From positions 1 through 9,094 of the forward strand of contig NZ_CDSC02000200.1 of the NCBI RefSeq assembly GCF_001298715.1: DNA of 9,094 nt, written 5' to 3'. The position numbers and the translations under genes were made by a program. The stretch is from Bathymodiolus azoricus thioautotrophic gill symbiont (GTDB lineage: Bacteria > Pseudomonadota > Gammaproteobacteria > PS1 > Pseudothioglobaceae). Of the stretch, positions 1-9,094 are shown one piece after another (the first letter of the stretch is position 1; the number at the start of each line of letters is the position of its first letter). A model generated the notes under the pieces. The model saw only the letters and a list, made by a program, of their open reading frames with translations, was not told where the DNA came from and did no database searches.

Positions 1-528
1 CGACTATAAAACAAATGCTGAGTAATAAAAACGAGCCAACAAAGGCGGTGTCAAACCAATCTTTTCCCAAGGTTGCAAGCTCTGGACCTAAAAAAGCAGA
101 AACCAAACCCCCAATAAGCACTGCTGAAGTAGCTGTTGCACTGAGGTTTTCATCAACACTTTCAATGGCGGCAAACCTAAACTGATTCATAGTCGCTACA
201 GTAACGCCAAATAAGAAAGTGGATAGACAAAACAAATAAAATGATTTTAATTCCAAGACCATGATAGCAAGTGCAATAACAGCAATTGTATAAACACAAA
301 CCCCTAAAAAAGTACGCCTTCTACCAATTTTAGACGTAATATAAACAACAGGAATAATACTGCTAGCAGTACCCACCGCAATCATTGCCACCGGTAGGGT
401 TGATAAACCAATATTGGGCGCTAAAGATTGACCAATAATACCCCAAGGAAAATCAAAAAAACCGTCAAAGACATAAATAATGACAAGCTAATCGCCAATA
501 ACCAAACATTACGAGGTAGTGAGTACAT
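1..528 (-). pseudogene. MFS transporter, N-terminal part, frameshifted and cut by the window edge
   Basis: This is the N-terminal part of a major facilitator superfamily permease, an inner-membrane transporter whose substrate cannot be told. Its ATG (526-528 on the complement) directly abuts the glmU stop, so it probably shares the glmU transcript. The first frame gives MYSLPRNVWLLAISLS and more hydrophobic sequence, then hits TAG at 421-423 after 35 residues. From about base 442 down to base 1 another frame is open for about 147 codons. It carries the family pattern GIIGQSLAPNIGLSTLP, a basic KIGRRR loop after the second helix, and several further membrane segments. One extra base restores the reading as FLGGIIGQ; the best site is the run of four C at 441-444 on the plus strand, the T7/A7 tract at 455-461 being the alternative. 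It could be a true pseudogene, a sequencing error or a slippage switch. The C-terminal half lies outside the window. Confidence 0.75.
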
Positions 529-1887
529 TTATTTTTTAATTGGTTTTTTCCAGTTTTTTAGCACAGCCTGCTTAGTGCGACTTAGACTGAGTTTACCACC
601 TGGCACATCTTTAGCGATAGTTGAGCCTGCACCAATAGTGGCATTTTTACCGATAGTCACTGGTGCGATGAATTGCGTATCTGAGCCGACAAATACACCG
701 TCTTCAATCGTGGTTTGGTGCTTATTAACACCATCATAATTACAAGTAATCACGCCAGCGCCGATATTAACACCCTCACCCATGATAGTATCGCCCACAT
801 AACTTAGGTGGGAGATTTTTGAACCCTTGCCAATAGTGGATTTTTTCACCTCAACAAAGTTGCCAATCTTGGCGCTTTCACCAATATGAGCCTCAGGGCG
901 GATGCGTGCAAATGGTCCGATAGATGCGCCATCGCCAATAATGGCATCTTCAATAACTGAATTAGGCAAGATAACTACATTAGTGCCAATTTTAGCGTTT
1001 TTTATTATACAATTCGGTGCAATTGTCGTGTTATCTCCAAGCGAAACATCACCCTCAACCACCACATTAACATCAACTTCACAATTTTGCCCAAAATTAA
1101 GCGTTCCTCGGCAATCAAAACGCGCAGGGTCTTTTAGCGTTAAGCCTTGTTGCATAAATTGATTTGCTTGATTTTTCTGAAAGACTCTTTCTAATTCTGC
1201 CAATTGCACTTTATCATTCACACCTGCTACCTCACTGTCATTTTCTGCAATGACTGATGCAATTGTTTTACCGTCTTTCACCGCCATTGCAATAATATCG
1301 GTCAAATAAAACTCGCCTTGTGCATTATTTGCGTTTAAATTGCCCAAATAAGCTTTTAATAAACCACTATCAAGCACCATAATACCTGTATTGACTTCAC
1401 AAATCATAAGTTGCTCAGTATTTGCATCTTTTTGCTCAACAATAGCTTGAATTTGATTATCCTTACGAATAATACGACCATAACCTGCTGGATTGTCAAG
1501 CATCACCGAAAGGAGTGCCACACCACTTTTTTGTGCTTGAGTGATCAGGTCTTTTAAAGTTGATTGCCGGATAAGTGGCACATCGCCATACAACACTAAA
1601 GAAATTGAATCATCATTGATATACGGCGTAGCCTGCTGAACCGCATGACCCGTGCCAAGTTGTTCGCTCTGCTCTACCCAGTTAATTGAATCATCATCAA
1701 GGGCTTGGCACACCTGCTCACTACCAAGGCCAACCACTACAAACACTTGTGAACAAAGTGCTTGTGCCTGCATCAGCACATGTTCAAGTAAAGTCTTGTC
1801 TGATAGGACTTGTAAGACTTTTGGTTTGGTAGAATTCATACGCGTGCCTTTGCCGGCAGCAAGAATGATGGCGTTAATGTTATTCAC
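529..1887 (-). CDS. glmU: Bifunctional UDP-N-acetylglucosamine pyrophosphorylase / glucosamine-1-phosphate N-acetyltransferase
   Basis: GlmU is a cytoplasmic enzyme that acetylates glucosamine-1-phosphate and then couples it to UTP, giving UDP-GlcNAc for peptidoglycan and lipopolysaccharide. At 452 residues it is close to the E. coli length of 456. The N-terminal nucleotidyltransferase domain (about 1-225) has the signature LAAGKGTRM at 9-17 followed by PK at 22-23, QLGTGHA at 76-82, and the metal-binding Asp102 in YGDVP. The C-terminal left-handed beta-helix (about 245-452) shows hexapeptide repeats rich in I/V-G-x-x-x, and the acetyltransferase motif [11 protein letters not shown] containing the catalytic His. 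The start codon is GTG (1885-1887), chosen because it places the signature at the expected distance; no clear Shine-Dalgarno precedes it. It is divergent from rpmE and runs straight into the MFS gene (stop and ATG adjacent). Confidence 0.97.
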
Positions 1888-1889
1888 AA

Positions 1890-1918
1890 TTGTATTTTAC
1901 TCAACAATGGTATATAAT
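1890..1918 (+). promoter_or_regulatory. Probable sigma-70 promoter of rpmE
   Basis: A perfect TATAAT at 1913-1918 lies 17 bases after TTGTAT at 1890-1895, which matches the -35 consensus in its first three positions. Transcription would begin near 1925, giving an rpmE leader of about 27 bases. The site starts only three bases from the glmU start codon on the other strand, so any glmU promoter must overlap it or lie inside the 5' part of rpmE. Confidence 0.6.
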
Positions 1919-1951
1919 GCTCCCTCTTTAGAGATTTGCATAAATAATAAC

Positions 1952-2164
1952 ATGAAAACAGATATCCACCCTAATTACGACACTGTAAAAGTAGTATGTT
2001 CATGCGGCAACGCTTTTGAGTCACGCTCAACGATTGGCAAAGAGGAGTTGCACTTAGATGTGTGTTCAAGTTGCCACCCTTTCTACACAGGCAAGCAAAA
2101 AATTATGGATAGCGCAGGTCGCGTTGAGAAGTTTAAATCTCGTTACGGTTCGTTCAAGCGATAA
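1952..2164 (+). CDS. rpmE: Large ribosomal subunit protein bL31, zinc-binding type
   Basis: This encodes bL31, a 70-residue protein of the 50S subunit that helps bridge the two subunits; E. coli L31 is also 70 residues. The start MKTDIHPNY and the block [15 protein letters not shown] are typical of the family. Cysteines 16, 18, 38 and 41 form the full zinc-ligand set, so this is the C+ form rather than the zinc-free YkgM-like paralogue. The frame is open further upstream (back to 1652), but that extension lies over glmU, whereas the ATG at 1952 gives the normal N-terminus. No strong Shine-Dalgarno is present; the leader before the ATG is A/T rich. The gene appears monocistronic, with a promoter at 1890-1918 and a terminator at 2184-2210. 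Confidence 0.97.
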
Positions 2165-2183
2165 ACAAACCGCTTCCCCAATA

Positions 2184-2210
2184 AAAAGCCACAATTTGTG
2201 GCTTTTTTTT
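2184..2210 (+). terminator. Rho-independent terminator after rpmE
   Basis: An inverted repeat GCCACA (2188-2193) / TGTGGC (2197-2202) with a three-base ATT loop is followed by eight T (2203-2210) and preceded by five A (2183-2187) that can extend the stem. It lies 20 bases after the rpmE stop and separates rpmE from hemE. The A-run/T-run symmetry could make it act on both strands, but no minus-strand gene ends here. Confidence 0.93.
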
Positions 2211-2235
2211 ATACCCGGCTACCAAGCAAAATCGC

Positions 2236-2241
2236 TATAAT
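2236..2241 (+). promoter_or_regulatory. Probable -10 box of the hemE operon
   Basis: A consensus TATAAT lies 30 bases upstream of the hemE ATG and just after the rpmE terminator, where a promoter for the downstream operon is expected. No recognisable -35 hexamer lies at 16-18 bases (the region is ACCCGG-like), and there is no TGn extension. The promoter is therefore either weak or activator-dependent, if real. Confidence 0.45.
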
Positions 2242-2271
2242 TACTAACTCACTATTTACTTACTTAAGACT

Positions 2272-3306
2272 ATGTCATTCGACTACATTAACGCTTTATT
2301 AAAAAAACCCACAACACGCACACCAATTTGGGTAATGCGTCAAGCAGGGCGTTATTTACCGGAGTATCGTGCCACTCGAAAACAAGCGGGTGATTTTTTA
2401 TCGTTGTGCAAAAATCCAGAATTAGCCTGTGAAGTCACGCTACAACCCATTGATAGATTTGACTTAGATGCAGCAATTTTATTCTCTGATATTTTGACCA
2501 TTCCTGATGCGATGGGCTTAGGCTTGTATTTTTCAGAAGGCGAAGGTCCGAAATTTAAAAACCCGATTCAAAATCTGCAAGATATTGAGAAATTACCAAG
2601 TGAGATCAATAACGATTTAACTTATGTTTTTGATGGTGTTTCAACCATTAAAAAAGCACTAAATAACCGTGTGCCCTTGATTGGTTTTAGTGGTAGCCCA
2701 TGGACTTTGGCAACCTATATGATTGAAGGTGGTAGCAGTAAGACATTTGCCAATACTAAAAAGATGTTGTTTAATGAACCAAAGGCCCTGCATTTACTAT
2801 TAGACAAATTAGCCCATAGCGTGATTGCCTATCTTAACCAACAAATTTTATCAGGTGCCGATAGCGTAATGATTTTTGACACTTGGGGTGGCGTACTATC
2901 CAAGCAAAATTATCTGGATTTTTCACTGGACTATATGGCAAAAATTGTTAAGGGCATCAAAGCCAAGCATCCTAATATTCCGATCACACTGTTCAGTAAG
3001 AATGGTGGCAAATATTTAACTTATATTGCCGATACGCTCTGTGATGGTATTGGTATTGACTGGACGGTTGAGCTGTCACAAGCACAACAAGAGGTTGGCA
3101 ATAAAGTCGCCATTCAAGGCAACCTTGACCCCGCCGTTCTCTACGCTACGCCTGAAATCATTGAGCGAGAAGTGAAAAAAGTGTTATCACAATTCAAAGG
3201 CGATACAGGGCATATTTTTAACCTTGGTCACGGTATTACACCTGATGTTGACCCTGAAAATATGAAAGTACTGGTTGATAGTGTGCATAACCTTAGCAAG
3301 AGGTAA
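2272..3306 (+). CDS. hemE: Uroporphyrinogen III decarboxylase
   Basis: HemE removes the four acetate carboxyl groups of uroporphyrinogen III to give coproporphyrinogen III in heme synthesis, in the cytoplasm and without a cofactor. It is 344 residues long (E. coli HemE is 354). The first family signature, [16 protein letters not shown], is at 18-33 with the substrate-binding arginines 23 and 27. The catalytic Asp is D73 in LFSDIL, the second signature [17 protein letters not shown] starts at 138 with Tyr149, and the C-terminal [15 protein letters not shown] block is intact. The ATG at 2272 gives the standard N-terminus; only a weak AAG precedes it. It is the first gene of a long plus-strand run, and its stop lies four bases before the next ATG. 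Its 3' end also supplies the ribosome binding site of that gene. Confidence 0.97.
3298..3303 (+). promoter_or_regulatory. Shine-Dalgarno of the ATPase gene
   Basis: AAGAGG in the last codons of hemE stands seven bases before the ATG at 3311. It decides the start in favour of 3311 over an in-frame ATG at 3275 inside hemE, which would only add [12 protein letters not shown] and has no ATPase-like sequence. Confidence 0.75.
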
Positions 3307-3310
3307 CATT

Positions 3311-4714
3311 ATGAATCTACTAGATATTAAGGTTAAGAACTTAGGGAAGCTGAAAGATGGCACAGTAAAGGTTCGCCCTTTAACTGTGCTGACGGGTGAA
3401 AATGGCACGGGTAAAAGTTTTTTTACCAAGACTCTGTATTCCGTTTTTAATATTGTTAATAAGAATTTACTTTATATTGAGGCTACTAATAATATTCGAA
3501 TGAGTAGCCTAGGAATTGATTTTTTTGATAAATCTTTAACGCGCAAAAGCAAAGAAGATAAAAAAAATATCCAATTATTAAAATTAACTCTTAACGAACT
3601 TCAATCCCTATTAATGGATATGAAAGATTACTCTATAGGTGCTTATATTCAAACTCGCTCTACTACAACCGATACACAGATTAAAAATTTTAATAGATTT
3701 ATAGAATACTTAACCAAATTAGAAAAAAAACAAAAAATCAAATCTGTGAGTTACCCTTCTAATATTTTAAGAAAATCTTTAAGCTCTTTAATCCTTAATT
3801 TAACAGAAGGAAAGAAAAGATATGTTGAACTATTAGATGATGCTTTAAAAAAAGAATTGCAAGAAAATTTCCAAATAGCCAACATATCAGAACTGGTTTC
3901 TTTTGATGAAGAAAAAACAAGCCTATCTGCCGATTATGGACTTAACATATCTTTTGATGCAAAAAATATTATTAATTTTAATTTAGACTCATTTTTTATT
4001 GATGATATATCCAAGCTTTCAAGAGTAGTATTTTTTGAGTCTCCTGCCTATTGGAGTGTCAGGGATGCATTGAATAAATCTAAAGAGGTTGAAGAAAAGA
4101 ATGACTTAACAGGTGTACCAAAATATTTTTATGATTTAGATAAAGCCTTAAACACCAAGTCAACTAACCCGCCATTGGAGATTATTTCAAAATTAGTAAC
4201 TGAGTTAAAAGCAGAAATTGGTGGGGAATTTATTTTTGAAAATGGTCGCCTGTCTTTTGTTGATGATTCTAACAGAAGCATTGATAAAAACTTAATTTCT
4301 TTTGGCATGACAAATTTAGGCATGATTCAAACGTTATTAAAAAATAATGTAATAAGTAAAGGCTCGTTTGTCTTTTTTGATGAACCAGAAACAAACCTAC
4401 ACCCAACTTGGCAGGTCTTATTAACCAAAACCTTAATTAAATTGGCAGAAAGCGGCGTTAATGTGGTGATGGCAACGCATAGTTTGGATATGATTAAGGC
4501 GTTAGAAGTCCACACTAAAGAAAAAGACGGCGATTTTATTGCGATTAATCATTTCACAAAAGAGGGTGGCTTGTTTGAATTTGACTCTAGTAATATTACT
4601 GAAAATTTAATAGAATCAAGAGAAAAATTGTCATCTCCATACACAGACCTATACACAGAAGACGCAAAGAATGGTCGATTTAACCAACTATTGCAAAACA
4701 ATTCAGCATGCTGA
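3311..4714 (+). CDS. ABC/OLD-type AAA ATPase, putative defence-module ATPase
   Basis: This is a 467-residue P-loop ATPase of the broad SMC/RecF/OLD-like class (AAA_15/AAA_21 type); I do not recognise a named family. Visible parts are an N-terminal strand start NLLDIKVKNLGKL, Walker A GENGTGKS at 29-36, a lysine/glutamate-rich and probably helical insertion at about 75-200, a signature-like S-F-G at 330-332, Walker B FVFFDEPE at 353-360 with the PExxLHP D-loop, and the switch histidine in THS (390). The chain ends about 75 residues after that, so it lacks the C-terminal TOPRIM nuclease of OLD proteins. No signal peptide or membrane segment is seen. It begins four bases after hemE and overlaps the next gene, which suggests the two proteins work together. 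Two 60-base blocks I counted have 25% (3541-3600) and 17% (3961-4020) G+C, against 47% in a block of hemE. The role is inferred: DNA- or phage-sensing ATPase of a two-gene module. Confidence 0.85.
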   Translation: MNLLDIKVKNLGKLKDGTVKVRPLTVLTGENGTGKSFFTKTLYSVFNIVNKNLLYIEATNNIRMSSLGIDFFDKSLTRKSKEDKKNIQLLKLTLNELQSLLMDMKDYSIGAYIQTRSTTTDTQIKNFNRFIEYLTKLEKKQKIKSVSYPSNILRKSLSSLILNLTEGKKRYVELLDDALKKELQENFQIANISELVSFDEEKTSLSADYGLNISFDAKNIINFNLDSFFIDDISKLSRVVFFESPAYWSVRDALNKSKEVEEKNDLTGVPKYFYDLDKALNTKSTNPPLEIISKLVTELKAEIGGEFIFENGRLSFVDDSNRSIDKNLISFGMTNLGMIQTLLKNNVISKGSFVFFDEPETNLHPTWQVLLTKTLIKLAESGVNVVMATHSLDMIKALEVHTKEKDGDFIAINHFTKEGGLFEFDSSNITENLIESREKLSSPYTDLYTEDAKNGRFNQLLQNNSAC

Positions 4715-5144
4715 AAAACACGGAAATAAAGAGATGGCAGATTGTAAAGCGATATTATTTGATATGAATGATGGCGGATTTGTTTCTTCCTTGGGTAAAA
4801 AATACGGCCAAGCATGCCAAGTTGACTATATTGAAATGATAGAAAATAGGGTTATTTTAATTGAATTAAAAGATTTGAAAGAGCAGTTAAAGAACAAAAC
4901 ATCGAAGGATATATTAAACAATCTTGGCAAAAAGTACACGAAGTCTATTGAGATTATTCAGAATGCCGTTCCCATTCTCTATTATGTAGTAGTTAAGAAT
5001 GACACCGAGATTGTTGTTTGGGATAATTTGTTTTCAATTAAAGACATAAAAATAAAGTTTGAAAATACATCTTTCGAGATTTGTGAAACCAATAAAATTT
5101 GCGAAAAATTGTCAACATTAAACACCCGATTATGTCAAGAATAA
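4671..5144 (+). CDS. Small protein with PD-(D/E)xK nuclease-like pattern, partner of the ATPase
   Basis: I do not recognise this 157-residue protein by family. Its middle reads VDYIEMIENRVILIELKD: an acidic Asp52, a turn, then a hydrophobic strand ending in E65-L-K67. A helical stretch (about 69-98) and another strand, PILYYVVV (101-108), follow. That order of acidic residue, ExK strand, helix and strand is the pattern of the restriction-endonuclease-like fold, so a metal-dependent nuclease is a reasonable inference, not a proof. The start at 4671 overlaps the ATPase by 44 bases and has GAAG nine bases upstream. An alternative ATG at 4734 gives 136 residues and keeps the whole motif. The stop overlaps the start of trpA by 13 bases. 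A block at 4861-4920 has 25% G+C, as in the ATPase and unlike trpA. It may be the effector of the pair; a structural or regulatory partner is also possible. Confidence 0.75.
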   Translation: MVDLTNYCKTIQHAEKHGNKEMADCKAILFDMNDGGFVSSLGKKYGQACQVDYIEMIENRVILIELKDLKEQLKNKTSKDILNNLGKKYTKSIEIIQNAVPILYYVVVKNDTEIVVWDNLFSIKDIKIKFENTSFEICETNKICEKLSTLNTRLCQE

Positions 5145-5935
5145 AAAATATCTTTCAAAGCCTAAGAAAACAAGGGCAAAAAGCCTTTATCCCCTTTATT
5201 ACCGCAGGTGATAGTGGCTTAAACAATACCTTTGAACTCATGCAAACATTAGTTGCCAATGGTGCAGATGTGATTGAGCTCGGTGTGCCGTTTTCAGATC
5301 CGATGGCTGATGGCCCTGTCATTGCCAAATCACATGAACGCTCAGTAGCAGACGGTGTGAGTTTGCGTGATGTGTTGACTTTAGTAGAAAAATTCAGACA
5401 AACTAATGACACAACTGCAATCGTTTTGATGGGTTATCTCAACCCAATTGAAGTGTTTGGTTACCAGGCATTTGCCGATGTGGCAAGTGAAAGTGGTGTA
5501 GATGGCATATTGGTAGTAGATATGCCGCCCGAAGAAGCACAAGATTTAAAAGCGTGTTTGGATGGTGCGGATATTGACTTTATTTTCTTAGTGGCGCCAA
5601 CCACGACTAACGAGCGCTTAGCAGCTTTAGCCAATATTGCCTCTGGCTTTGTTTATTTTGTTTCACTCAAAGGCGTGACCGGTGCTGGACATCTAAATAT
5701 TGATATCGTGAATACAAATATGAGTAGAATCCGCCAATTCATCAACTTGCCTATTGGTGTTGGCTTTGGCATTAAAGATGCAGCAACCGCCAAAGTGGTC
5801 TCTAAATCAGCAGATGCGGTGATTGTTGGCTCATCATTAGTGTCATTTATTGAAAAATATAATGAGAATAAGGATAAAATGTTAGCAAGTGTTGGCGCGT
5901 TGGCAAACGAAATTTCAAGAGCAATTAAGGAGTAA
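5132..5935 (+). CDS. trpA: Tryptophan synthase alpha subunit
   Basis: TrpA cleaves indole-3-glycerol phosphate to indole and glyceraldehyde-3-phosphate; the indole is channelled to TrpB, which makes tryptophan. The TIM-barrel protein is 267 residues when started at 5132. This puts the catalytic residues at E49 ([11 protein letters not shown]) and D60 (MADGP), the same numbers as in E. coli, which supports this ATG over one at 5099 that would add 11 residues inside the upstream gene. [14 protein letters not shown] and the phosphate-binding GVGFGI and VIVGSSLV segments are present. No good Shine-Dalgarno precedes the ATG, and it sits inside the end of the upstream gene, so translation may be coupled to it. 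Its usual partner trpB is not adjacent. The downstream accD, two bases away, is a common gammaproteobacterial neighbour. Confidence 0.96.
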
Positions 5936-5937
5936 CG

Positions 5938-6777
5938 ATGAGTTGGTTAGAAAAAATCCTACCTTCTATTACCAGTGTAGCGAAGAAAAATATTCCAGAG
6001 GGCTTGTGGAGAAAGTGCCCCAAGTGTGAAACTACCCTTTATTCAGAAGAGTTAGAAGGGTTGGATTATGTTTGTCCCAAATGCGATTATCACATGCGTA
6101 TTTCTGCTCGTGTACGCCTCAATAGTTTTTTAGACGAAGATGGACAAAAAGAAATTGCACCTGATTTGGTTGCAGTTGATCCTTTAAAATTTAAAGACCA
6201 AAAGAAATACAAAGAACGCATTATTCAAGCACAAAAAACCACCAATGAAAAAGACGCTTTAGTTGTAAAAAGTGGTACGCTACATGGGATGAGCGTTGTT
6301 GTAGCTGCATTTGATTTTAAATTTATGGGTGGTTCAATGGGCTCAGTAGTGGGCGAAAAATTTGTCCGTGCAGCGCAACTTTGTATGGATACTGATGTGC
6401 CGCTGGTTTGTTTTTCAGCATCCGGCGGTGCACGCATGCAAGAAGGCTTGTTTTCGCTTATGCAAATGAGCAAAACATCACTGGCACTAAAATTACTCAG
6501 CAACAAAAAAATTCCATTTATCTCAATTTTAACCGATCCAACCATGGGTGGTGTGTCTGCCAGCTTTGCCATGCTAGGCGATATTCACATTGCCGAGCCA
6601 AATGCACTGATTGGTTTTGCTGGGCCTAGAGTAGTGGAGCAAACAGTGCGAGAGGAGTTGCCACCAGGCTTTCAACGCAGTGAATTTTTACTTGAAAAAG
6701 GCGCAATCGATATGATTGTACATCGCAGAGATTTGCGCGACAAAGTACACCAACTGCTACAAGCTCTACATGGCTAA
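5938..6777 (+). CDS. accD: Acetyl-CoA carboxylase, carboxyltransferase beta subunit
   Basis: AccD pairs with AccA to form the carboxyltransferase that moves CO2 from biotin to acetyl-CoA, making malonyl-CoA, the first committed step of fatty acid synthesis. It has 279 residues; E. coli AccD has 304 and the difference is at the C-terminus. The N-terminal four-cysteine zinc ribbon has C27, C30, C46 and C49, identical in position to E. coli. The crotonase-like core shows [25 protein letters not shown] and [17 protein letters not shown]. The ATG follows the trpA stop by two bases, and AAGGAG at 5927-5932 is a strong ribosome binding site overlapping the end of trpA. The stop overlaps the start of fkpB by eight bases, indicating cotranslation. 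Confidence 0.97.
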
Positions 6778-7189
6778 ATACAAAATCTTCTACAAGCTCA
6801 CACACGCAAGTGGTGAATTGGTTGATGCCTCGCTTGACACCCCTTTTGAATTTGAAGTTGGCGATGGGCAACTTGACCCTTGCCTAGAATCTTGCATTAA
6901 AGAAGCAAAAGTGGGCAAACTGCAAACCTTCTTGTTAAGTGCCAGTGAGGCCTTTGGTCAAGCTGAGAGCGACGCCATTCAAGTGATGCGTCGCGCTGAG
7001 TTCCCTAAGGAGTTAGACATCAAGCTTAATAATGGCGTTGAATTTAAAACACCCGCAGGTGATTCTTATGCAGGCTGTATTGATAAAATTGATGGCGACA
7101 ATATTACCGTAAATTTTAATCACCCCTTGGCAGGTTGTGATGTCTCATTCCAAATAGAAATACTTGAAAAATCTAAAAGCCCTCAATGA
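6770..7189 (+). CDS. fkpB: FKBP-type peptidyl-prolyl cis-trans isomerase, FkpB/SlpA type
   Basis: This is a small cytoplasmic SlyD-like prolyl isomerase, 139 residues against 149 for E. coli FkpB. The FKBP core is split by an insert-in-flap domain. The first part (about 1-63) holds [16 protein letters not shown] and the acidic-aromatic EAFG. The insert spans about 65-110, and the core resumes with [11 protein letters not shown] at 112-122 and ends FQIEILE. It lacks the His-rich metal-binding tail of SlyD. The start at 6770 lies within the last codons of accD (eight-base overlap); the frame is open back to 6716 but the extra residues do not look like FKBP sequence. Its TGA overlaps the ispH ATG (ATGA), a pairing of fkpB with ispH that is common in gammaproteobacteria. 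Confidence 0.94.
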
Positions 7190-8112
7190 AGGTGCTACTT
7201 GCCAATCCACGAGGTTTTTGCGCAGGGGTTGAGCGTGCCATTGAAATCGTTGAGCGTGCATTAGAATTGCATGGTGCGCCTATTTATGTGCGTCATGAAG
7301 TAGTGCACAACAAATTTGTAGTAGATAGCCTTAAAACCAAAGGTGCGATTTTTGTTGAAGAAATCGATGAAGTGCCAGCAGGCAAAGTGGTGATTTTTAG
7401 CGCACACGGTGTATCAAAGGCAGTGCGCCAACAAGCCAATGAACTCGGTGCAATTATTTATGACGCTACCTGTCCACTGGTCACCAAAGTCCATAAGGAA
7501 GTCGTGCGCAAACAAAAAAAAAACCATCAAGTCATCTTAATTGGACACGAAGGACACCCAGAAGTAGAAGGCACACTTGGGCAATCAAACCAAAGTGCAA
7601 GTGTTACATTGATTGAAACCGTTGCAGATGTAGATAAGTTAAATTTGGACAACAAACAACTTTCTTATACAACACAAACCACCTTATCCATTGACGATAC
7701 CCAGCAAATTGTTAATGCGCTAAAAGATAGATTTCCTGAGATTAAATCACCGCAAAAAGATGATATTTGCTATGCGACGCAAAACCGACAAGACGCCGTT
7801 AAAACACTCATGCAAGATTCTGACATGCTCTTGGTATTAGGCTCTAGCAACTCTAGCAACTCAAATCGCTTGAGAGAAATTGCCGAAAAAATGCAAAAAA
7901 ACGCTTATTTGATTGACGGTGCAAACGAAATTCAACCAAGTTGGCTAACTGATGTCAATACTATTGGGGTTACAGCAGGCGCATCAGCGCCTGAAATATT
8001 GGTACAAGAAGTCATTGATTATTTGCGCGATCACGGTGCAAACGAAGTGATTGAAGTAGGTGGCGTGAAAGAAAGCACACACTTTCCAATACCCGAACAA
8101 TTAAGAAAGTAA
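7186..8112 (+). CDS. ispH: 4-hydroxy-3-methylbut-2-enyl diphosphate reductase
   Basis: IspH is the last enzyme of the MEP isoprenoid pathway. It reduces HMBPP to isopentenyl and dimethylallyl diphosphate using an oxygen-sensitive [4Fe-4S] cluster. At 308 residues it is near the usual size. The three cluster cysteines are C12 ([11 protein letters not shown]), C96 ([12 protein letters not shown]) and C195 ([10 protein letters not shown]). Substrate-contact residues H41, H74 and H124 are at their E. coli positions, and [17 protein letters not shown] and SSNSSNSNR are all intact. Translation is probably coupled to fkpB through the ATGA overlap. A run of ten A (7514-7523) encodes part of KQKKN and is a possible slippage point, but the frame is intact as given. 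Confidence 0.97.
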
Positions 8113-8133
8113 ACCGAAACACCTACATAAAAA

Positions 8134-8139
8134 AAGGAG
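8134..8139 (+). promoter_or_regulatory. Strong Shine-Dalgarno of the PfkB kinase gene
   Basis: A full AAGGAG lies six bases before the ATG at 8146, in the 33-base gap after ispH. It is among the best ribosome binding sites in the window and suggests independent initiation even if the gene is cotranscribed. No promoter or terminator is evident in the gap. Confidence 0.8.
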
Positions 8140-8145
8140 AAAACA

Positions 8146-9087
8146 ATGTCAAAAACAGCTCTCATTTGTGGCTCTTACGCCTTTGATTCTATTATGGTTT
8201 TTCACGACCAATTTAAAAACCATATCTTACCCGACAAGGTACATATGCTGAATGTCTCATTCTTAGTGCCAACCATGCGCAAAGAGTTTGGTGGTTGTGG
8301 TGGCAATATCGCTTACAATCTACATTTATTAGGCGCCAACTCCGTGCCAATGGCAACCGTGGGCGAAGACTTTACCCCTTATATGAATTGGATGGAATCT
8401 CATCATATGAATACCACGCATATAAAAGTAATTGAGGGCACTTACACAGGTCAAGCCTTTATCACCACTGATATGAATGACAACCAAATTACTGCTTTTC
8501 ACCCGGGTGCGATGAGCGAGTCGCACCAAAACCAAGTCAGTAATGCTTCTGTGGCTGATATTGGCATCGTCTCACCCGATGGACGCGACGGTATGATTGA
8601 ACACGCAAAACAATTTGCAGATAGCAACATCGCTTTTATCTTTGACCCAGGTCAGGGTATGCCGATGTTCTCAGGTGAAGAATTAACCGCCTTTATTAAG
8701 CAGGCAAACTATGTAGCAGTCAATGACTATGAATCACAAATGCTACAAGAGAAAACAAACCTAGATTTAGCAACTATTGCTTCAATGGTAGACGCACTCA
8801 TTATCACCAAAGGCGCTAAAGGCAGTGAAATCCACACCAATGGCGAAGTGATTAACATTGCCCCAGCAAAAACGCAATCTACACAAGACCCAACAGGCTG
8901 TGGCGATGCTTATCGTGCAGGCTTATTATACGGGCTAATGAATGACATGAGCTGGCAAACCACAGGGCAACTAGCAGGGCTGTTAGGCGCCATTAAGGTT
9001 GCCCACCTAGGCACGCAAAATCATCAATTTGACTTGACTGAGATAGAGCATTTGTATCAACAGAATTATGGCGAATCTTTATTTTGA
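8146..9087 (+). CDS. PfkB-family carbohydrate/nucleoside kinase, probably adenosine kinase-like
   Basis: This is a 313-residue ribokinase-fold kinase that transfers the ATP gamma-phosphate to a sugar hydroxyl. The N-terminal substrate-side motif GGCGGNIAYNLHLLGA begins at 49. NDYE at 193-196 is the NxxE metal/phosphate motif. The PfkB signature DPTGCGDAYRAG is at 248-259, with Asp254 as catalytic base and the anion-hole glycines before it. The sequence resembles proteobacterial proteins annotated as carbohydrate or adenosine kinase (AdoK-like). The substrate cannot be fixed from sequence alone; ribokinase or fructokinase activity remains possible, though adenosine salvage fits best. It starts 33 bases after ispH and is complete, with TGA at 9085-9087, seven bases before the window end. 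Confidence 0.9.
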   Translation: MSKTALICGSYAFDSIMVFHDQFKNHILPDKVHMLNVSFLVPTMRKEFGGCGGNIAYNLHLLGANSVPMATVGEDFTPYMNWMESHHMNTTHIKVIEGTYTGQAFITTDMNDNQITAFHPGAMSESHQNQVSNASVADIGIVSPDGRDGMIEHAKQFADSNIAFIFDPGQGMPMFSGEELTAFIKQANYVAVNDYESQMLQEKTNLDLATIASMVDALIITKGAKGSEIHTNGEVINIAPAKTQSTQDPTGCGDAYRAGLLYGLMNDMSWQTTGQLAGLLGAIKVAHLGTQNHQFDLTEIEHLYQQNYGESLF

Positions 9088-9094
9088 GTTACAA

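Follow-up and report, generated by a model that had tools for sequence, protein, structure and literature searches.

What is encoded by the two overlapping genes that lie between hemE and trpA in a mussel gill symbiont, and is this ATPase with its small partner a new kind of anti-phage system? The stretch analysed here (the window) comprises 9,094 nucleotides from the Bathymodiolus azoricus thioautotrophic gill symbiont (contig NZ_CDSC02000200.1, positions 1 to 9,094, forward strand). The first gene (3311..4714, + strand) encodes an OLD/SMC-type ABC ATPase of 467 residues, the predicted sensor and regulator, and the second (4671..5144, + strand) encodes a partner of 157 residues, a predicted PD-(D/E)xK-like nuclease-fold effector; their open reading frames overlap by 44 bp. 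We consider it probable, largely by analogy, that these two genes form a conserved module that works as a WonAB-like anti-phage alarm, in which the partner would be held by the C-terminal tail of the ATPase and would use D52, E65 and K88. The original prediction of a compact sensor-plus-nuclease module is thus supported as a prediction, the pair recurring in varied contexts. The further claim that its architecture is undescribed is not borne out: the window pair is an unlabelled branch of a known class, OLD-type ABC ATPases with a small nuclease.

The ATPase is read from the ATG at 3311 to the stop at 4714; the mechanical reading frame begins earlier, at a TTG at 3275. Both reading frames and all three ATPase motifs are present as first proposed, namely Walker A (GENGTGKS, residues 29–36; 3395..3418, + strand), Walker B (FFDEPE, residues 355–360; 4373..4390, + strand) and the H-loop or switch (THS; 4475..4483, + strand). 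In a 27-row alignment, G29, N31, G34, K35 and S36 of Walker A, D357 and E358 of Walker B, and T389, H390 and S391 of the switch are invariant. In Pfam, the protein matches AAA_15 (1e-18) and AAA_21 (6e-14), the latter described there as a putative AbiEii toxin domain. The predicted model is an ABC/SMC-type head, whose closest solved counterparts include SMC, Rad50 and PtuA, and Pfam returns no TOPRIM match, in agreement with the view that the ATPase lacks this domain. The ATPase also matches a PHROG of unknown function (2.5e-87), with a single match in phage records (25% identity over 33%) and ten in plasmid records, all below 60% identity.

Conservation of the partner was counted over 45 representatives at less than 80% identity, among which D31, D52, E65 and K88 are each kept in 45 of 45, and position 92 is serine in 41 and threonine in four. 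Two residues of the motif first proposed, D52 (4824..4826, + strand) and E65 (4863..4865, + strand), therefore stand as candidate metal ligands. The third, the ExK lysine K67 (4869..4871, + strand), is not family-conserved (K in 13, S in 29, T in 2 and R in 1), being replaced in 32 of 45 representatives, whereas K88 (4932..4934, + strand) never varies. Because K67 is not a family residue and the other four are invariant, K88, which in the predicted model lies in a helix (residues 78–96) after the E65 strand, may stand in for the ExK lysine, as a candidate migrated catalytic residue. The model leans towards a PD-(D/E)xK-like fold, with the aspartate and glutamate invariant and the ExK lysine not. 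Profile libraries give the partner no name: there is no match in PADLOC at E ≤ 10 or in NCBIfam at E ≤ 1, and the matches in Pfam and PHROG are at E 0.03 or worse. A search of the partner profile against solved structures gives only E 0.37 and worse, and Foldseek gives no confident match, leaving room for families outside the VIA list. A relative of 94% identity (P0004) has five residues more than the window partner, and those absent from the latter (window 4951–4975) would stand immediately ahead of NAVPILYY.

The nearest structures of the partner include ERCC1, EME1 and FANCM-FAAP24, which we take to be non-catalytic nuclease-fold proteins. Together with the presence of serine or threonine at the ExK lysine in 31 of 45 representatives, this would accommodate a non-catalytic adaptor built on a restriction-enzyme-like sheet rather than a nuclease. 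However, the invariance of D31, D52, E65 and K88 across all 45 diverse representatives fits catalysis better than binding, and we regard the adaptor as unlikely.

The ATPase profile retrieved 32 genomic loci and 52 loci on viral contigs, and in 36 of the 41 close loci (L017–L057) a partner match adjoins the ATPase or is fused with it. This count takes in one split partner (L036) and two remnants (L038 and L046), and L051–L053 carry the same pair; the other five close loci (L029, L039, L042, L047 and L048) end 0–75 bp past the ATPase match. The partner profile used for it (A3) itself contains many of these partners; a profile built from one search's hits and the window only (A1) recovers 24 of the 41 loci (E < 1e-6), the Acinetobacter-like partners not being among them. 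At the 43 distant ATPase loci (L058–L100) there is no partner match even at E ≤ 1. Scanning viral contigs with the partner profile confirmed none, but the scan with the ATPase profile did find partner-bearing viral loci; phage and plasmid records yield nothing for the partner, and plasmid records nothing for that of a Vibrio relative (L035). The partner of an Acinetobacter relative (L043) matches phrog_34018, of unknown function (1e-75), and the same family weakly matches the partners of L019 (3.4e-5) and L035 (4e-4), thereby linking the partner branches. The surroundings differ among hosts (gene names by eye). In Methylococcales-type genomes an rnr-like gene lies upstream at nine loci, one of which (L042) ends inside the ATPase, and an rlmB-like gene lies downstream at six, 1.8 kb away in L023. 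At four loci, two in Vibrio genomes and two on viral contigs, the pair follows a repressor-like gene and precedes an integrase-like gene.

Starting near residue 438, the C-terminal segment of the ATPase (4622..4714, + strand) is a putative docking segment for the partner and appears to be swappable. We compared 12 linked pairs, six linked by position and six drawn from protein clusters that were matched by the equal length of their longest contigs. The two tail types match the two partner types in all 12 (by eye; tail P0079 is intermediate). Tail and partner divergence are correlated (rho 0.67, Mantel p 0.002), body and partner only weakly (rho 0.30, p 0.017), and tail and body not at all (rho -0.06, p 0.74). 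Because the tail tracks the partner type and not the ATPase body, the alignments suggest that nucleases are exchangeable between ATPase bodies; linkage could add to the tail–partner correlation. These natural combinations of tail and partner suggest a place at which ATPases of this kind may bind their nucleases.

The closest functional counterpart is WonAB, reported in 2025 from the WASA-1 prophage of Vibrio cholerae (PMC12137116). WonAB is an OLD-type ABC ATPase with a small predicted variant PD-(D/E)xK nuclease, encoded as a two-gene operon downstream of a putative prophage regulator; defence needs both genes, and K71 of WonB is needed for defence and toxicity. Its protection is by abortive infection with translation arrest. 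Excess WonB halts translation only when WonA is present, and the predicted docking site of WonB lies on WonA's C-terminal extensions, themselves dimerised (PMC12137116), with which the co-variation of tail and partner described above fits. By published description, the two systems share an ABC ATPase in which Walker A, Walker B and the H-loop are all intact, followed by a small partner, and the four Vibrio and viral loci between repressor-like and integrase-like genes add to the likeness. They differ in motif spacing (K34–E300–H333 in WonA, K35–E358–H390 in the window ATPase) and in the partner (16.1 kDa with key residue K71 in WonB, 157 residues with invariant K88 in the window). The WonA spacing is absent among reading frames whose Walker A fits G..G.GK[ST] in the first 100 loci. 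PD-T4-4 is reported, like WonAB, as an OLD-type ABC ATPase paired with a small PD-(D/E)xK-type protein (PMC12137116), and related candidates, PDC-M47 for example, appear in PADLOC. It is these precedents that take the word undescribed from the architecture; what the window adds is an unlabelled branch of the class, with a putative active-site change (K88 versus K67) that can be tested.

By analogy with WonAB, a dimer of the ATPase would sense a sign of infection while holding the partner by its C-terminal tail. The activated partner would cut nucleic acid via D52, E65 and K88, perhaps with D31, and cleavage would stop growth or the phage. A defence function is likely on this comparison. In addition, the distribution is patchy, as would be expected of defence genes: the partner profile matches ten of 83 Thioglobaceae genomes, one of them by a remnant, and pairs also occur on viral contigs. 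Three remnants (P0029, L038 and L046) retain the start of the ATPase and the end of the partner with the middle lost, a joint decay of both genes that we count in favour of an immune module.

Does the pair then belong to a named system? The best PADLOC match of the ATPase is HEC-02A (1e-33, best stretch residues 177–453), with weaker matches to AriA, PD-T4-4_A and NsnB. For HEC-02, the partner has no match to the small HEC-02B type at E ≤ 10; one model bearing the HEC-02B label has the length of an ATPase and hits the ATPase instead (1.3e-26). The A models of PD-T4-4 and PDC-M47 match the ATPase (3e-21 and 7e-17) and no B model matches the partner at E ≤ 10. The likeness to these two systems is that of an OLD-like ATPase with a small partner, and the PDC-M47B protein of the window's genome shares a D...ELS segment with the partner family (hhalign, 29 columns, probability 18%); however, a PDC-M47 pair of that genome scores 2e-210 and 3e-59. 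Septu or retron PtuAB, Gabija GajAB and PARIS AriAB have related OLD/SMC-type heads, and PtuA and AriA match the window ATPase by sequence profile, PtuA also by structure. For PARIS, the AriA model matches the ATPase at 2.7e-22, but neither TOPRIM nor AriB is matched by the partner. For Gabija, the 467-residue ATPase has no Pfam TOPRIM, and its neighbours are hemE, the partner and trpA, with no UvrD component. For Septu, the partner has no HNH or PtuB match. The effectors of these three systems are thus not found here, as originally stated.

A pair of toxin–antitoxin type, or one that stabilises plasmids, could share several of these features, with the ATPase only restraining a toxic partner and sensing no phage. 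The partner is small and overlaps or abuts the ATPase, the three remnants have lost parts of both genes at once, and AAA_21 carries the putative toxin description given above. Restraint alone sits poorly with the invariance of the ATP-binding and hydrolysis residues in all 27 rows, and in WonAB, WonB is non-toxic without WonA, a result taken there to argue against simple sequestration (PMC12137116); we judge this account quite improbable. Weakest is a host-serving accessory of DNA repair or recombination, a RecF/Rad50-like ATPase with a nuclease, for which SMC and Rad50 among the closest solved heads, purifying selection and placement beside housekeeping genes could speak, but which we hold very unlikely, since a pair that the partner profile finds in the ten genomes of the family counted above and in five of 369 sampled from the class (one of the five at no better than E 0.007), that is broken in three genomes (G044, G050 and G179) and occurs on viral contigs is not a vertically kept core gene.

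Returning to the proposed anti-phage module, its setting inside a housekeeping operon, first proposed from the window, fits the gene spacing. The upstream neighbour hemE (2272..3306, + strand) ends with a 4-bp gap to the ATPase, and the ATG of the downstream neighbour trpA (5132..5935, + strand), at 5132, lies inside the last codons of the partner; both names are read from sequence. The module would be expressed along with the housekeeping operon. Among the 83 Thioglobaceae genomes, hemE was found in 80, and the region downstream of it was read in 40 of these. The pair or a remnant follows hemE in ten of the 40 regions, and wherever both flanks are visible (eight of eight) it lies between hemE and trpA, two of the ten contigs ending inside the pair. 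The slot is empty in 27 regions, where 2–71 bp separate hemE and trpA as aligned; the remaining three hold another pair (G066), an assembly gap, and a region without trpA within 5 kb.

In G066 (L153), the slot is taken by an AAA ATPase and a DUF3226-like gene after it, identified by their resemblance to the second pair found in L033 (6902–8475). That L033 pair, which is AbiLi/PDC-M38-like, has in G050 the partner on one side and trpA on the other, next to a broken version of the window's ATPase. In G044 (L038, 5001–7619), a deletion has joined the start of the ATPase directly to the partner; a piece of an IS30-like transposase (by eye) comes next, and hemE and trpA still flank the remnant. In G058, of the same genus as the window genome, the interval from hemE to trpA holds a stack of two Sel1-repeat genes and, behind them, the pair. 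They are separated by chimeric scars (L017, 3200–3411 and 4790–5003) in which the start of trpA is joined to the end of hemE, twice by an identical junction, possibly a trace of cassette stacking; among 207 loci this scar is found in L017, L102 and L132, all one genome, and it is absent from the window at up to three mismatches.

Both genes are under purifying selection. The ratio of nonsynonymous to synonymous divergence (dN/dS) is 0.17–0.24 for the ATPase (five comparisons) and 0.19–0.30 for the partner (four comparisons, the fifth being saturated), with 0.05–0.11 for hemE and trpA. Against a locus from another genus (L018), dS is 0.62 for the ATPase and 1.27 and 1.10 for the flanks. Since the ATPase value lies below those of the flanks, the comparison suggests that the slot was exchanged later than the flanks diverged. 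The module would spread among relatives via recombination in the flanking genes, with tail and partner exchangeable as one block.

The same genome (G000) holds three more pairs of an OLD-like ATPase and a small partner between housekeeping genes (names by eye). PDC-M47A and B lie between thrC and cysM (C165, 3000–7939; L200; PADLOC 2e-210 and 3e-59), a split ATPase with a PDC-M29B-like partner (1e-6) between accC and argC (C157, 1–5500; L202), and a HEC-02A-like ATPase with a small partner (HEC-02B, 0.004) between aspS and nadA (C510, 3876–8045; L002). Most of their junctions are tight, the genes overlapping or standing apart by no more than a few bases, with about 41 bp at aspS. When the 83 genomes were searched with PDC-M47A, six matched at 1e-30, the three strongest between thrC and cysM; weaker matches lie between accC and argC (G000, G050, G052 and G071, the last three by the ATPase alone). 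Compared as profiles, the partner family and the three other small partners reach low probabilities of 0.7, 18 and 8%.

A broader picture is possible, though we hold it only tentatively: a plug-in immune ATPase in which one sensor body takes exchangeable nucleases through a swappable C-terminal docking tail of some 20–30 residues, the catalytic lysine having moved to the K88 helix, and which occupies seamless operon slots (hemE and trpA here, thrC and cysM for PDC-M47, accC and argC for the PDC-M29-like pair), spreading by homologous recombination in the flanks without an integrase. Within the searches made, the branch, the K88 shift, the exchange of tail and partner and the operon slots are apparently new, with no claim that defence pairs in operon slots are unreported. 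Defence pairs may occupy fixed, gap-free slots in housekeeping operons, where surveys of defence islands would tend to miss them. The same genome also carries a Gabija-like pair of an OLD ATPase and a UvrD helicase (C379, L204; by eye) and an AAA ATPase paired with RloB (C175, L203; RloB 6e-33).
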